Positions 35,931-43,919 of a DNA stretch of 47,985 nt are shown piece by piece. Source of the DNA: Clostridia bacterium (GTDB lineage Bacteria; Bacillota; Clostridia; Christensenellales; CAG-138); the NCBI GenBank assembly GCA_017614315.1, contig JAGACA010000004.1, forward strand, positions 1-47,985. Reading direction: 5' to 3'. Position numbers and translations under genes: made by a program. The notes under the pieces are model-generated. The model did not search any database. It was not told the origin of the DNA and saw only the letters and a program-made list of their open reading frames with translations. How positions within the stretch are numbered: the first letter of the stretch is position 1; the number at the start of each line of letters is the position of its first letter.

Positions 35931-35959
35931 TTGATGAGCGGAAGTATTTAATGTATAAT
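35931..35959 (+). promoter_or_regulatory. Promoter of the partner-switching operon
   Basis: TTGATG, 17 bp, TATAAT. The whole stretch from tcccttgatga to tttaatgtataatat recurs at 42018-42051 in front of the MATE-ATPase operon, including bases in the spacer and beyond the -10. Confidence 0.75.
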
Positions 35960-35988
35960 ATCCATATATCATAATCTGGAGGATAAAA

Positions 35989-36600
35989 ATGAGATCGGAC
36001 ACTATCATGGTTTCCAGCTCCGGCGCAGGCATCGCGGACGCGCTCAAGACCGCGGAACGCGTAGCGGAGTATAAGGGGCTTGCCAAAAAGGATGCGCTGC
36101 AGCTCCGCCTTCTTACGGAAGAGCTCATGGGCATGCTGCGCGGGCTTACGGGCGAGAAGGATGCGAAGTTCTACATCGAGGACGACAAGAACGATTACCG
36201 CATCCACCTTGTCACCGAGACGGCCATGGACGCGGAGAAGCGCAGGAAGCTGCTTTCGTCCTCCACGTCCGGCAAAAACGCCGCCGTCACCGGCGTCATG
36301 AGCAAGATCCGCGACCTGTTCCAGCAGGCCTTCGAGCCGCTGGACGACGATCTGCCCTCGTATTACACCGCCGGTTGGGTGGGATACGACATCGATCCCG
36401 CCGCGGCCGATTTCGCGTTCCAGGATCACACCTGGAGCTTCAACCGCTACAGGGATTCCATAACCCGCGAGAACAACACGGAGGAGTGGGACGAGCTTGA
36501 GAAGAGCATAGTCGCCAACCTCGCCGACGAGATAAGCATAGGAATTAACAAAAACAAAGTCGAAATGATCATTTTCAAAAAATTCGGAGGTAAAAAATGA
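35989..36600 (+). CDS. Anti-sigma-like (degenerate GHKL ATPase) protein
   Basis: A 203-residue cytoplasmic protein. LQLRLLTEELMGMLRGLTGE (about residues 42-61) sits where RsbW/SpoIIAB-type anti-sigma ATPases have their N-box, but the usual Asn and His are not there, and no clear G-box follows. Instead there is a ~60-residue insert (SSSTSGKNAAVTGVMSKIRDL onward) and a C-terminal acidic helix. It may bind partners without hydrolysing ATP. Its stop overlaps the ATG of the STAS gene (ATGA), which ties it to partner switching. RBS TGGAGGA. The assignment rests on the helix pattern and context. Confidence 0.6.
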   Translation: MRSDTIMVSSSGAGIADALKTAERVAEYKGLAKKDALQLRLLTEELMGMLRGLTGEKDAKFYIEDDKNDYRIHLVTETAMDAEKRRKLLSSSTSGKNAAVTGVMSKIRDLFQQAFEPLDDDLPSYYTAGWVGYDIDPAAADFAFQDHTWSFNRYRDSITRENNTEEWDELEKSIVANLADEISIGINKNKVEMIIFKKFGGKK

Positions 36601-36893
36601 ACATCACAAAGACCAAGGAAGGCAGCCGTCTCACGATCGCGCTCAGCGGCAGGCTCGACACCATGACCGCGCCGGAGCTCGAAAAGGCGATCAACGACAG
36701 CATCATCGGCGTCGACGAGCTCGTTCTCGACCTTAAGGAGCTCGAATACATGTCGTCCGCGGGACTTCGCGTGCTCCTCTCTGCCCAGAAGAAGATGAAG
36801 AACGTCGGCAGCATGACCGTCAGGAACGTCAACGAAATGATAATGGAGATCTTCGAGGTCACCGGCTTCGCCGACATTCTGACGATAGCCTGA
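36597..36893 (+). CDS. STAS-domain anti-anti-sigma factor antagonist
   Basis: A 98-residue single STAS domain like SpoIIAA/RsbV. The phosphorylation-site motif is EYMSSAGLRVLL, with S53/S54 as candidate phosphoserines, preceded by the strand ELVLDLKEL. In the known systems the dephosphorylated form traps the anti-sigma ATPase and frees the sigma factor; phosphorylation by that ATPase resets it. Here the likely partners are the overlapping upstream protein, the downstream fusion's ATPase domain and possibly the MATE-fused ATPase. RBS CGGAGG lies inside the upstream gene. No sigma factor gene is in the window. Confidence 0.9.
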   Translation: MNITKTKEGSRLTIALSGRLDTMTAPELEKAINDSIIGVDELVLDLKELEYMSSAGLRVLLSAQKKMKNVGSMTVRNVNEMIMEIFEVTGFADILTIA

Positions 36894-36913
36894 CGCGGGG
36901 TGATTATCAAACG

Positions 36914-38500
36914 ATGAGCGGCGGTCCGGACAACAGCATAACGATACCGCTTTCCGGCAGGATCGATTCCAATAACGCGGCGAAGGTCGAGGAGGATATC
37001 AGGGCGAAGCTCGCGGGCAGGGCTCCTTCGGAGCTCGTTCTCGACGCGCAGAAGCTCGATTACATCTCAAGCGCGGGGCTCCGCGTGGTATTAAGGCTCA
37101 AAAAATCCTTCCCGGGGCTTGCCGTTACGGGATTGAGCTCCGAGGTCTACGAGATATTCGAGATGACGGGCTTTGCCGAGATGATGCGCGTGGAGAAGGC
37201 CTATCGCGAGATCTCGGTCGAGGGCTGCGAGGTGATAGGCGAGGGCGCGAACGGCAAGGTATACCGCATCGACGGCGACAACGTGGTTAAGACGTACAAG
37301 AACGCCGACGCGCTTTCGGAGATCCGGCACGAGCGCGAGGTCGCGCGCCTTGCGCTGATATTGGGCGTCCCGACCGCGATCTCATACGATGTCGTCAGGG
37401 TCGGCGACAGCTTCGGCTCCGTGTTCGAGCTGTTGAACGCCAGCTCCTTTTCGAAAATACTCGCCAACGAACCGGAGCGCTATGACTGGTGCGTAAAGGA
37501 ATACGTCGGGATGCTCAAGAAGATCCACGCGATCACCGTCCCAGAGGGGAAGCTCCCGCCCATTAAGCACAAGATCGTCGAAGCGGCGGAGAGGATAAAG
37601 GACAGCCTCCCCGACAGCCTCGGCGATAAGCTCGTCAAGATGACGAAGGAGATACCCGACAGCGACCGCATGATCCACGGAGATCTCCATACCAAGAATA
37701 TCGTTCTTGCAGGCGACGAGGTGCTCCTCATCGACATGGACACGCTCTCCGTCGGGCACCCGATATTCGAGTTTTTCAATATCTATAACGCCTATATCGG
37801 CCGTTCCGAGCTTGACAACGATATAGTCATGAGGTTCCAGGGCTTCGATCAGGAAACTGCGAACCGCTTCTGGCGCGACACCCTGACCGCCTATCTCGGC
37901 ACGCACGACGAAAACGCAGTCAAGACCGTCGAGGACAAGATCCGCTGCGTCGCCTATGCCTACCTCGTCGACTGGGCAGTCCGCCACAGCTTCCGTGACG
38001 AAGCGACCGCCGCTTTATGGAAAAGCCGGCTCGTCGAGCTCCTCGGGCGGCTGGACACGCTCACGTTCGAAGTCGACGAAAGCTCGGGCGATCCCGACGA
38101 GATCGAGGTCGACGCCGATACCGGAAGCCTTGAGGCCGTGATCGACCACGTCGGCGCTCGCCTCGACGCGCTCGGTTGCCCTCCGAAGACGAGGATGCAG
38201 ATGGAGCTTGCGGTCGAGGAGATATTCGTCAATATCGCGCATTACGCTTACGCTCCCGAAAAGGGACGCGCATGGATACGCGCTGAGGCCGACGAAGCGG
38301 AGCGCGAGCTGACGGTGACTTTCACGGACGCCGGCAGACCGTACGATCCCACGAAGAGAGCCGACCCCGACGTAACGCTCTCTGCGGACGAAAGGAACCC
38401 CGGCGGGCTCGGGATATTCCTGACGAAGAAGCTTATGGACAGCGTGGCGTATGAGTATAAGGACGGCAAAAACGTCCTGACCGTACGGAAAAAGGTGTAA
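36914..38500 (+). CDS. STAS / APH-like kinase / HATPase three-domain fusion
   Basis: A 528-residue fusion. Domain 1 (about 1-95) is a STAS domain with DYISSAGLRVVL (S52/S53). Domain 2 (about 100-385) is an aminoglycoside/choline-phosphotransferase-like kinase: GEGANGKVYRI (P-loop-like), HGDLHTKNIVL (H255-N262) and LIDMDTLSVGHP (D274/D276), close to the poorly characterised TIGR02172-type family. Domain 3 (about 395-528) is a GHKL ATPase of the RsbW/SpoIIAB kind: ELAVEEIFVNIAHYAY (E435, E436, N440), DAGRPYDPT and GGLGIFLTKKLMD. So antagonist, small-molecule-type kinase and anti-sigma kinase are joined in one chain. It follows the STAS gene by 20 bp. RBS GGGGTG is modest. Confidence 0.9.
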   Translation: MSGGPDNSITIPLSGRIDSNNAAKVEEDIRAKLAGRAPSELVLDAQKLDYISSAGLRVVLRLKKSFPGLAVTGLSSEVYEIFEMTGFAEMMRVEKAYREISVEGCEVIGEGANGKVYRIDGDNVVKTYKNADALSEIRHEREVARLALILGVPTAISYDVVRVGDSFGSVFELLNASSFSKILANEPERYDWCVKEYVGMLKKIHAITVPEGKLPPIKHKIVEAAERIKDSLPDSLGDKLVKMTKEIPDSDRMIHGDLHTKNIVLAGDEVLLIDMDTLSVGHPIFEFFNIYNAYIGRSELDNDIVMRFQGFDQETANRFWRDTLTAYLGTHDENAVKTVEDKIRCVAYAYLVDWAVRHSFRDEATAALWKSRLVELLGRLDTLTFEVDESSGDPDEIEVDADTGSLEAVIDHVGARLDALGCPPKTRMQMELAVEEIFVNIAHYAYAPEKGRAWIRAEADEAERELTVTFTDAGRPYDPTKRADPDVTLSADERNPGGLGIFLTKKLMDSVAYEYKDGKNVLTVRKKV

Positions 38501-38531: not shown

Positions 38532-39686
38532 ATGAGAACCAATAATGTTACTGCTTTCATCATGGCCCTTGTGTTTTTATGCACGGGCCTGTGCTTTTTT
38601 TCCGCGTGCGGAAAGAAATACCCGTCGCTTAACGGGACGATCGACAACATCAACAAACACGGCAACGTGACCGTCACGCTTACCAAGGCCGAAATGGCCG
38701 ATAACGGATACGAATACGGCGATATCGTCACGGTCACGTTTGCGGAAAACAGCCTTGACGTCCCGTACTGCAGCAGTTACTCCGACGTCGACGCCGGTTC
38801 TGCCGGCATTTTCGGCAAGCCGGACAACGACACGCTCGTGCTCGCCGTCAACGGCGGCAGCTTCGCCGCGGTCTACGGCATAGCCGACAAAAAGACGTTT
38901 GACGACGGCTCGTTCGAATGGATCTACCGCGAGGGCATGTCCGAGGCGCTTTCGTTCGGCGTATCTATGAAGACCAAACGCGGGTATTACGACGAATACG
39001 TCGTCCGCCAGCTGACCTACACCGACGAAAGATCCGACTATCCCGGGCTTTCCGATGAGGAATACGCCAATTTCAGAGCCGTCTCCGCGACAGGGATAAG
39101 GGCGAACGTACTGTTCCGCTCGTCTTCGCCCATCGATCCCGATTGGGCCAGGAGACCATACGCCGACGCCGCCGCGAAGGAGCACGGCGTGAACGTGATA
39201 CTGGATCTCGCGGACGACGAAGCGGCGCTCGCCGCATATGAGGGCTATGATTCCTCCTGTTTCGGCGGCGCGAAGCATCTGGCGCTTAACATGGGCATGG
39301 ACTATACCGAGGCCGATTTCAGGGAAAAGCTCAAGGCGGGACTCAGATTTATCGCTGAAAACGAGGGCGTCTACCTCATCCACTGCAAGGAGGGGAAGAG
39401 CAGGACGGGCTTCGTAATAGCGCTCCTCGAGTTTCTGATGGGCGCGGGCTATGACGAGGCGGAGGCCGATTACATGCTCACCTACCGCAACTATTACGGC
39501 GTAGTGAAGGGCGATGAAAAATACGGATCGATCGCGTCCGCAAATTTCGAAAAGATGTTTTTAAGATCGTTCGCCGTCGGCGACGTCAGGAAAGCCGACC
39601 TTAAAAAACTCGCGGAGTATTACATAAAAGGGCTTGGCCTGACCGACGCGGAGATCGCCGCGATCAGAGCGCACCTCGCCGCGTGA
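38532..39686 (+). CDS. Lipoprotein with tyrosine/dual-specificity phosphatase domain
   Basis: A 384-residue lipoprotein (lipobox about FFSAC, Cys about 26). Residues about 30-120 (GTIDNINKHGNVTVTLTK, PYCSSYSDVDAGSAG, LVLAVNGGSFAAVYGI) look like the C-terminal beta domain of SAM hydroxide adenosyltransferases, here without its catalytic N-domain. Residues about 175-340 are a cysteine phosphatase: FRAVSATGIRANVLFRSSSP and the P-loop HCKEGKSRTGF with C285 and R291 (C-x5-R). It is predicted to act outside the cell. It is 31 bp after the kinase fusion and has its own terminator downstream, so it closes this operon. RBS AGGAAG. Confidence 0.85.
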   Translation: MRTNNVTAFIMALVFLCTGLCFFSACGKKYPSLNGTIDNINKHGNVTVTLTKAEMADNGYEYGDIVTVTFAENSLDVPYCSSYSDVDAGSAGIFGKPDNDTLVLAVNGGSFAAVYGIADKKTFDDGSFEWIYREGMSEALSFGVSMKTKRGYYDEYVVRQLTYTDERSDYPGLSDEEYANFRAVSATGIRANVLFRSSSPIDPDWARRPYADAAAKEHGVNVILDLADDEAALAAYEGYDSSCFGGAKHLALNMGMDYTEADFREKLKAGLRFIAENEGVYLIHCKEGKSRTGFVIALLEFLMGAGYDEAEADYMLTYRNYYGVVKGDEKYGSIASANFEKMFLRSFAVGDVRKADLKKLAEYYIKGLGLTDAEIAAIRAHLAA

Positions 39687-42116: not shown

Positions 42117-43919
42117 ATGATATCGGTCAGACAGAAAAAAGGAGACGCGATCACCGCAAGGCTGTTCCAGAACGCCATGCTGACGATGCTGGTGGCGGAG
42201 CTTTCCGGCGCGTTCACAGCGGTCATCGACGGAATAATCACCGGACAGTTTTTGGGGCCGGTCTCGCTGGCGGCGTTCGGCATAGGCACGCCCTATTTCA
42301 GCATCGCCTCGATAGTAAGCGGCATACTCATGGTCGGAAGCACCGCAATGTGTACCCGCGCCATAGGAAGGGGCGACAAGACGGAGCTCACGAGGGTGTT
42401 CTCGCTGACGATACTGCTCGGAGCCGTCGCTTCCGTGCTTCTTGCCGCGCTCGGCTTCGGCTTTGCGGACTCGCTCGCGTCGCTCTTCGGCGCGAAGGCT
42501 TCCGCCTCCTCCCTGCACGGGCAGACCGCGCAGTATCTTCGCGGCATATTCTTAGGCGCGCCGGGCTTCATCATGTTCGTGATACTCACTCCGCTTCTGC
42601 AGCTTGACGGCGATTCCCTGCGTCCGCAGCTCGCGAGCATCGTTATGGCGATAGTGGACATCGGCGGAGACGTCCTTAACGTCACCGTATTCAAGGGCGG
42701 ACTGTTCGGCATGGCTCTTGCGAGCACGTTCAGCCACTACGCCGCGCTCCTCGTGCTCCTTACGCATTTTATCAAAAAGAGCGATCTCTTCACGTTCTCA
42801 CTGCGCGAGGTCGGGTTAAAGACCGCGCCGAAGCTCATGAGCGACGGGCTCCCGCGCGCGGCGTGCATGCTCTGCCGCGGCATACTGCCCATCGTCATCA
42901 ACAGCCTTGCGCTGAAGCTTGCGGGCGACAGCGGCGTCGCGGCGTATTCGACCATGAACAGCACGACCTTCGTCGTCGGCTCCCTGGGCTGGGGGATCGG
43001 CGGAGCGGTGCTCATCATGGGCGGCATGACGGTCGGCGAACAGGATACCCGCGGGCTCGTCACGGTGATCAAAACCGCGCTCAAGGACATCCTCATCGGC
43101 GTCGTGCTCCTTGCCGCTGCGGTATTCGCGGCCGCGCCGCTTATCGCGGGGCTGTTCATAACCGAGGCGGGGGAGATACGCGATATGGCCGCGGCGGCGA
43201 TACGCTGCTACGCGGCGGCGCTCCCGTTCCTTGCCTTCAACGTGTCCGCATCGAATCATTTCCAGTCGATATCGAGGAAGGCCGAGGCCTACGCGGTCAA
43301 CATCTGCATTGAGCTCGTCTGCACAGCTTTGGCGGCGCTCGCGCTCTCGTCCTTCATTGGCGTGACCGGATTGTGGCTCGCGTTCCCGACAGGCCAGGCG
43401 CTCCTCAGCCTCGCGATCGCGCTTCGCGCGGTATTCGGACGTGACGGAAAAAGAAAGGGGCTCGCCTCGTTCCTCATGCTCCGAAAGGATTTCGGCGTTA
43501 ACGAGAACGACTGCGTCGAGCGGTCGGTCGTCTCGATGGATGACGTCATCGCGCTTTCCGTCGACGTCGGGGAGTTCTGCTCGTCGCACGGCATCGGCAA
43601 AAAGGAAGCGAACCGTGTCGCCCTGTGTATCGAGGAGATGGCGGGCAACGTCGTCGAGCACGGCTTTGCCGACGGCAAGCCGCATCATCTCGACGTCCGC
43701 GTGATAGTCAAGGACGGAAAGACCGTGCTCCGCATGAGGGATGACTGCGCGTTCTTCGATCTGAGGGAGCAGGCGAAAAAATGGTCCTTCGATCCGGAGC
43801 ATCCCGAAAAGAACATAGGCATCCGGATGGTGATGGGCGCTTCCGAGGACGTCGTCTACACCCGCACCATGAAAACGAACAACCTTATCGTAACGGTCAA
43901 AAAGGAGAATGCCTCATGA
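42117..43919 (+). CDS. MATE transporter fused to anti-sigma-type ATPase domain
   Basis: A 600-residue fusion. Residues about 1-450 are a 12-helix MATE-type exporter (ELSGAFTAVIDGIITGQFLGP and GPVSLAAFGIGTPYFSIASI at the start; a second half from about 240). Residues about 465-600 are a GHKL ATPase of the RsbW class: RVALCIEEMAGNVVEHGF (E506/E507, N511, H515), RMRDDCAFFDL and KNIGIRMVMG. Thus the transporter carries a cytosolic domain of the kind that phosphorylates STAS proteins. The stop overlaps the start of the next gene (ATGA). The start has only a distant GAGGAT; the first ~10 residues are polar as expected for MATE. The promoter matches that of the STAS operon. Confidence 0.9.
   Translation: MISVRQKKGDAITARLFQNAMLTMLVAELSGAFTAVIDGIITGQFLGPVSLAAFGIGTPYFSIASIVSGILMVGSTAMCTRAIGRGDKTELTRVFSLTILLGAVASVLLAALGFGFADSLASLFGAKASASSLHGQTAQYLRGIFLGAPGFIMFVILTPLLQLDGDSLRPQLASIVMAIVDIGGDVLNVTVFKGGLFGMALASTFSHYAALLVLLTHFIKKSDLFTFSLREVGLKTAPKLMSDGLPRAACMLCRGILPIVINSLALKLAGDSGVAAYSTMNSTTFVVGSLGWGIGGAVLIMGGMTVGEQDTRGLVTVIKTALKDILIGVVLLAAAVFAAAPLIAGLFITEAGEIRDMAAAAIRCYAAALPFLAFNVSASNHFQSISRKAEAYAVNICIELVCTALAALALSSFIGVTGLWLAFPTGQALLSLAIALRAVFGRDGKRKGLASFLMLRKDFGVNENDCVERSVVSMDDVIALSVDVGEFCSSHGIGKKEANRVALCIEEMAGNVVEHGFADGKPHHLDVRVIVKDGKTVLRMRDDCAFFDLREQAKKWSFDPEHPEKNIGIRMVMGASEDVVYTRTMKTNNLIVTVKKENAS

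Follow-up and report, generated by a model that had tools for sequence, protein, structure and literature searches.

What does a partner switch act on when no sigma factor is encoded beside it? The question is raised by three genes, here called G1, G2 and G3, in a stretch of 47,985 nucleotides from a Clostridia bacterium (GenBank contig JAGACA010000004.1; the whole stretch is referred to below as the window). The product of G3 joins a STAS domain, an APH-type kinase and an RsbW-type ATPase in one chain. The answer we favour, at a probability of roughly 0.55, is that G1–G3 constitute a partner-switching unit which acts on proteins directly, without a sigma factor. We hypothesize that the C-terminal ATPase of G3 is the sole active serine kinase of the system (the ‘writer’), which would phosphorylate the serine in the STAS domain of G2 and also the one in G3, the latter in cis or in trans, while a membrane-bound SpoIIE-type PP2C phosphatase would strip the phosphate on a signal. 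Unphosphorylated STAS would dock on RsbW-fold domains with decayed ATP sites (the ‘readers’), namely G1 and the C-terminal domain of a MATE transporter, and docking would gate transport; through its own STAS domain, G3 would make the APH-type kinase responsive to the same phosphorylation state. The features concerned are as follows.

35931..35959, forward strand: weak promoter-like site TTGATG-17-TATAAT upstream of the G1–G3 operon.
35989..36600, forward strand: G1, 203 residues, an RsbW-fold pseudo-ATPase without the paired ATP-site glycine motifs; probable STAS-binding reader.
36597..36893, forward strand: G2, 98 residues, a free-standing STAS antagonist; codons of S53/S54 at 36753-36758.
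36914..38500, forward strand: G3, 528 residues, the STAS-APH kinase-RsbW ATPase triple chain.
36935..37204, forward strand: STAS domain of G3, residues 8-97; codons of S52/S53 at 37067-37072.
37217..37894, forward strand: APH/TIGR02172-like kinase domain of G3, residues 102-327.
38114..38491, forward strand: RsbW-type HATPase_c_2 domain of G3, residues 401-526, ATP-site motifs intact; putative writer kinase.
42117..43919, forward strand: MATE transporter with a partly decayed C-terminal HATPase_c_2 domain (HATPase part 43560-43892); probable output.

G1 and G2 overlap by 4 bp and a gap of 20 bp separates G2 from G3, all three on the same strand; the overlapping or adjacent arrangement described in a first-pass annotation of this DNA is borne out by the coordinates of the open reading frames (ORFs). 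The search with hidden Markov models (HMMs) which that annotation had called for recovers the domains it named: a Pfam scan matches G3 to STAS (PF01740, E 1.6e-13), APH (PF01636, E 8.3e-13; 49.1 bits against a gathering cut-off of 23.2) and HATPase_c_2 (PF13581, E 8.9e-24), and G2 to STAS (E 3.3e-15). A STAS antagonist with a phosphorylatable serine is present (PF01740/TIGR00377 above cut-off). The serines stand at S53/S54 of G2 and S52/S53 of G3, as first placed, and the pair is kept in all 83 distinct free STAS homologues and all 90 distinct kinase-fused STAS domains. By analogy with SpoIIAA we take the second of each pair, S54 in G2 and S53 in G3, to be the phosphate acceptor.

The kinase part of G3 carries K126, H255-G-D257, H259, N262 and D274, and all 91 of 91 distinct kinase domains have the corresponding Lys, HGD, His, Asn and metal Asp. 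The Pfam score, the HGDxHxxN motif and the metal Asp place it in the APH phosphotransferase superfamily. Its match to the NCBIfam model TIGR02172 spans model positions 3-226 of 226 (E 4.4e-30) and, at 105.2 bits against a cut-off of 228.2, falls short of membership in that family. The ATPase part has intact N, G1 and G2 sequence boxes of the RsbW type, with residues invariant in 41/41 fused chains. In a structural comparison, Foldseek lists 50 hits for G3, each an aminoglycoside phosphotransferase or a methylthioribose kinase; by sequence profile, the 7 matches of G3 in the Protein Data Bank (PDB) are STAS antagonists (SpoIIAA, RsbV, TM1442 and one more) and RsbW. The structure model of G3 (predicted local distance difference test, pLDDT, 88.6; predicted template modelling score, pTM, 0.66) leaves the mutual placement of the three domains undefined.

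Relatives of the locus were sought in 84,980 species genomes; 354 were found and the best 80 kept, giving 81 loci with that of the window. Where given, their origin is mostly the rumen or gut and their taxon Firmicutes. The genes around each locus were typed with HMMs built from the proteins of the window and of the loci. How often the three domains meet in one chain had been posed as a check on the first reading, and among these best 80 relatives the triple fusion was typed in 33 other loci. Because the same chain recurs in those loci and 41 distinct fused sequences align along the whole of G3 (mean column identity 69%), the fusion is genuine, neither chance nor an assembly error. In total 34 loci have the ATPase fused and 47 have the STAS-kinase chain alone (‘split’), a fused share that is not a population figure because two of the six peptide patterns used in the scan lie in the ATPase part.

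The writer itself is distributed by a simple rule. Split loci carry the same ATPase nearby in 38 of 47 cases, either on the C-terminus of a SpoIIE-type PP2C (20) or free (18), while a second such ATPase accompanies none of the 34 fused loci (Fisher 8e-15). The difference persists when the count is confined to 85% representatives whose flanks reach 5 kb or more on the upstream side and 3 kb or more on the downstream side (0/22 fused against 18/21 split). Exactly one writer is present in 72 of the 81 loci, none in 9 and two in no locus. The triple fusion is one of three settings of the same ATPase: STAS-kinase-fused, PP2C-fused and free. The paired ATP-site motif (D-x-G followed by G-x-G) is retained in all three (41/41, 29/30 and 23/23, respectively). 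The motif patterns are the looser ones, chosen so that the positive control, the SpoIIAB-like protein of the window genome, passes. More widely, 39 of 297 genomes of the order match G3 at 1e-20; sorted by hand, 24 of these cover the STAS-kinase part, 11 of them with all three domains in one chain, and the other 15 match in the ATPase alone. In a sample of 398 genomes from the phylum, 6 have a match at 1e-40, counting the bacterium's own, and among the others only G611 matches over the whole chain.

G1 presents the opposite character. The first-pass annotation had called it a degenerate anti-sigma-like protein, and profile and structure comparison do give it the GHKL/RsbW fold, with the paired glycine motifs gone. 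The paired motif is found in 0 of 32 G1 proteins, where the SpoIIAB-like control passes; D-x-G alone, by the looser pattern, occurs in 2/32 and the N-box Asn is substituted in 32/32. G1 is identified by fold rather than by sequence: it has no Pfam family at E <= 1, a single NCBIfam model far below its cut-off and no PDB sequence match below 0.2, and a Pfam scan of the 32 proteins gave no common family (at most two members sharing one, at E 0.077). A free STAS gene adjoins G1 in 27 of the 32 homologues. At one locus (L204:6468-8250, reverse strand) a STAS gene has G1 genes on both sides, as if one antagonist served two readers. In two sister rows of the STAS-kinase tree, G1 forms the C-terminal part of an MscS-type channel (L059:3727-5127 and L062:1611-3011).

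The MATE transporter, absent from the first-pass annotation, is the best candidate for the output of the switch. Encoded 3.6 kb downstream of G3, it matches MatE (E 4.2e-29; 101.7 bits in 2 stretches, cut-off 24.9) and HATPase_c_2 (E 9.4e-11), and is a MATE family member by the Pfam cut-off; with the NCBIfam matE model it scores 104.6 bits, below the cut-off of 147.4. The paired glycine motifs are present in none of 37 MATE-HATPases, D-x-G alone in 14. Matches over both parts occur in at least 23 of the 297 genomes of the order, hand-picked as those reaching residue 540 or beyond, with at most four candidates per genome scored; 20 of the 23 were typed in fetched stretches, G123, G146 and G190 being left out. 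These genomes tend to be the ones that carry the switch: 20 of the 23 belong to the 39 genomes showing a G3-type match (3.0 expected), 11 to the 24 with the STAS-kinase part (1.9 expected) and 14 to the 22 with G1 (1.7 expected), while 21 of the 22 G1 genomes are among the 39 (2.9 expected), all of these counts ignoring kinship among genomes. RsbW-fold domains with decayed ATP sites thus recur on membrane transport proteins in genomes with the switch, and this recurrence is our ground for the transport reading, not proof of it. A stand-alone APH-type kinase gene adjoins a MATE-HATPase gene at L224:7410-8402 (reverse strand), in a genome (G111) without a G3 match.

The phosphatase is the remaining component. 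A SpoIIE-type PP2C lies near 22 of the 34 fused and 24 of the 47 split loci (46/81). Contig C5 carries all three SpoIIE domains of the window genome: a gene taken to be spoIIE (C5:220819), a weak match (C5:13091) and the protein of C5:65615. The last includes a membrane part of the 5TM-5TMR_LYT type, and its alignments of 253-316 residues with PP2Cs of the relatives' loci show 43-48% identity (11 listed hits); by elimination, it is likely the phosphatase of the switch. The anatomy of the system, as far as it can be read from the genes, is consistent with a single writer and a single phosphatase alongside several STAS proteins and decayed readers, which are the components of a partner switch minus the sigma factor.

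Several observations weigh against this arrangement. Nine of the 47 split loci show no ATPase, several of them with full flanks. No PP2C lies beside the window locus, the candidate being on another contig. Foldseek with G1 returned no hit at E <= 0.001, and the G1 profile reaches 85% probability to the MATE ATPases and 12% to the active ones, so that its link to the latter is weak. Decay of the MATE ATPases is partial: the N-box Asn is kept in 29/37 and one glycine of the second box in 36/37, and some of these proteins may still bind ATP. The transporter gene is not in the G1–G3 operon, because 3.6 kb and three ORFs, which have no relatives in the loci and one of which is on the opposite strand, lie in between. 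A MATE-HATPase is near the anchor in only 9/34 fused and 4/47 split loci, and 15 of 37 MATE-HATPases lack a typed neighbour in the flanking 400 bp (the counts of neighbours within this distance, and no other counts, leave out the duplicate loci L211 and L212). The disregard of kinship in the co-occurrence counts belongs here as well.

Could the locus be an ordinary sigma switch operating in trans? A sigma factor encoded elsewhere would then be bound by the G3 ATPase or by G1, and the transporter would be unconnected or no more than a side target. Sequestering sigma factors is the classical task of RsbW-type ATPases whose motifs are intact, and the window genome has 13 Sigma70_r2 matches (one below cut-off), with one sigma gene directly following spoIIAA-spoIIAB-like genes. 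However, none of the 13 is on the 48-kb window contig (C20), in agreement with the first-pass statement that no sigma factor is present, and the output is probably something other than sigma. The SigF-like gene is, moreover, already adjoined by its own STAS and ATPase. Among relatives, sigma-like ORFs turned up in 4 of 121 sources, two of which are the same contig, when the SigF-like protein served as a phmmer query, a probe of lower sensitivity than a family model; three were confirmed by Pfam. The wider inventory of the genome holds STAS domains on C1 (beside the SpoIIAB-like and sigma genes), in G2, in G3 and in a 570-residue frame on C9. HATPase_c_2 domains are found in G3, the MATE fusion, the SpoIIAB-like protein on C1, one protein on C18 and, below cut-off, one on C8. 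Absences from this inventory are provisional because the genome is 90.7% complete. On balance, we consider a sigma switch in trans unlikely.

Another possibility is that the switch works mainly through the APH-type kinase, a small-molecule kinase which would be gated by STAS and would have as its counterpart a nucleotide phosphoesterase of the SpoT-type HD or the PHP nucleoside-bisphosphate phosphatase kind; the transporter would then be secondary. The unbroken conservation of the kinase residues and the small-molecule kinases among the Foldseek hits agree with it, as do the neighbours: an HD_4 gene lies within 400 bp upstream of 23 of 50 STAS-APH genes and a PHP gene within 400 bp downstream of 17 of 41 genes of the fused form. 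The HD_4 proteins are closest to the hydrolase part of RelA/SpoT and the best model for the PHP proteins is 3',5'-nucleoside bisphosphate phosphatase, but both score far below the NCBIfam cut-offs. In two other genomes of the phylum a SpoT-type HD is fused to a TIGR02172-like kinase without STAS (L236:1495-2973 and L238:1324-2820, both on the reverse strand); this fusion has a near full-length match in 2 of the 398 sampled phylum genomes, one of them the query's own. The 81 loci have HD_4 only in 26 cases, PHP only in 21, both in 1 and neither in 33 (Fisher 4e-4). We rejected this exclusivity as proof of a shared substrate, as the pattern mostly tracks the fused and split clades and may reflect descent only. 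Neither gene is near the window locus: the one HD_4 match of the genome falls in a 721-residue frame on C1 that we interpret as Rel/SpoT, and the closest PHP relative, with 34% identity, is on C9. The kinase as principal output accordingly seems improbable to us. There are nevertheless hints that the substrate of the G3 kinase may be nucleotide-like, from a neighbour signal which follows clades and comes from relatives.

The partner switch acting directly on proteins could be part of a wider scheme in gut Firmicutes, which is possible and which we put forward tentatively: a single roaming writer would act through STAS proteins on decayed readers carried by MATE exporters and MscS channels, gating transport directly at the post-translational level, and would also control an APH kinase that, together with a phosphoesterase of the SpoT-type HD or PHP kind, acts on a nucleotide-like messenger.

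The history of the fusion can be followed in the tree of STAS-kinase chains, where a single supported group of 40 rows takes in all 34 fused ones together with 6 split ones; the fused/split label requires 5 changes. The simplest reading would be that the fusion arose once and was later split. At L066 and L084 the end of the kinase gene and the beginning of the ATPase gene share 4 bp, a single step short of fusion. It is extremely improbable that the fusion is a broken or accidental product without function: those 6 of 40 members do lack the ATPase on the chain, but 4 of the 6 have it nearby, 34 of the 81 loci are fused and the catalytic residues are invariant.

How does the system compare with known partner switches? 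SpoIIAA-SpoIIAB-SpoIIE and RsbV-RsbW-RsbU of Bacillus likewise employ a STAS serine antagonist, an intact RsbW-type ATPase and a SpoIIE-type PP2C, found here in the relatives' loci. In contrast to them, there is no linked sigma factor here, the ATPase is fused to a STAS-kinase, and there are additional RsbW-fold proteins with decayed ATP sites, of which one is part of a MATE transporter and another, seen in two relatives, belongs to an MscS channel. To our knowledge, neither SiaABCD of Pseudomonas aeruginosa nor SypE-SypA of Vibrio fischeri has an RsbW-fold domain on a transporter or channel, or an APH-type kinase. The TIGR02172 family has a similar kinase domain, to which G3 adds signalling domains on both sides. 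The first-pass view that classical partner switching keeps antagonist and ATPase apart is too strong as a general statement: Rv1364c is a single protein that unites PAS, PP2C, kinase and STAS (PMC9138534). A chain with both STAS and ATPase is thus already known; unlike G3, Rv1364c is without an APH-type kinase, includes the phosphatase and is linked to SigF. Outputs other than sigma are likewise known or proposed: for STAS/HATPase/PP2C sets of Campylobacterota, control of c-di-GMP enzymes or of a chemoreceptor without a sigma factor has been proposed (PMC9239204, accessible part). Those outputs differ from the ones considered here, and that part of the account names no transporter or APH-type kinase. 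Among the titles and abstract openings listed from the published literature, mainly openly accessible texts, we found no report of a STAS-APH-ATPase chain, a MATE-HATPase fusion, the G1 family or an RsbW-type domain on MscS proteins.

Partner switching is known chiefly for freeing sigma factors, with a few cases acting on an enzyme. Here an exporter, and in relatives a mechanosensitive channel, bears the recognition domain of an anti-sigma factor in a form whose ATP site has decayed. If the decayed RsbW-fold domains bind STAS, bacteria would have a phosphorylation switch that controls transport quickly and independently of gene expression. An active ATPase on three carriers and never two per locus amounts to a clean and testable wiring rule, and the APH-fold kinase within the chain is a defined candidate for what this fold, familiar mostly through antibiotic resistance, may do in nature.

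Some minor features complete the picture. The promoter-like site ahead of G1 agrees in position with the start assigned to the region in the first-pass annotation (35931), and is weak, as 3 such sites were found in the region against 2.0 expected from shuffles. Other recurrent neighbours of the loci are an M15 peptidase (6/34 fused, 4/47 split) and DUF218 (7/34 fused, 5/47 split). The small HATPase_c_2 protein on C18 (L115:1444-1878) lies in a cluster that, by eye, contains hydrogenase-like iron-sulfur proteins. At 38532-39686, 31 bp past G3 and on the same strand, a 384-residue protein is encoded which matches the tyrosine phosphatase domain PF13350 (1.4e-14) as well as SAM_HAT_C. It is probably outside the switch system, since it has no relative among the 80 related loci; lipoprotein-like by eye, it may be co-transcribed with G3.

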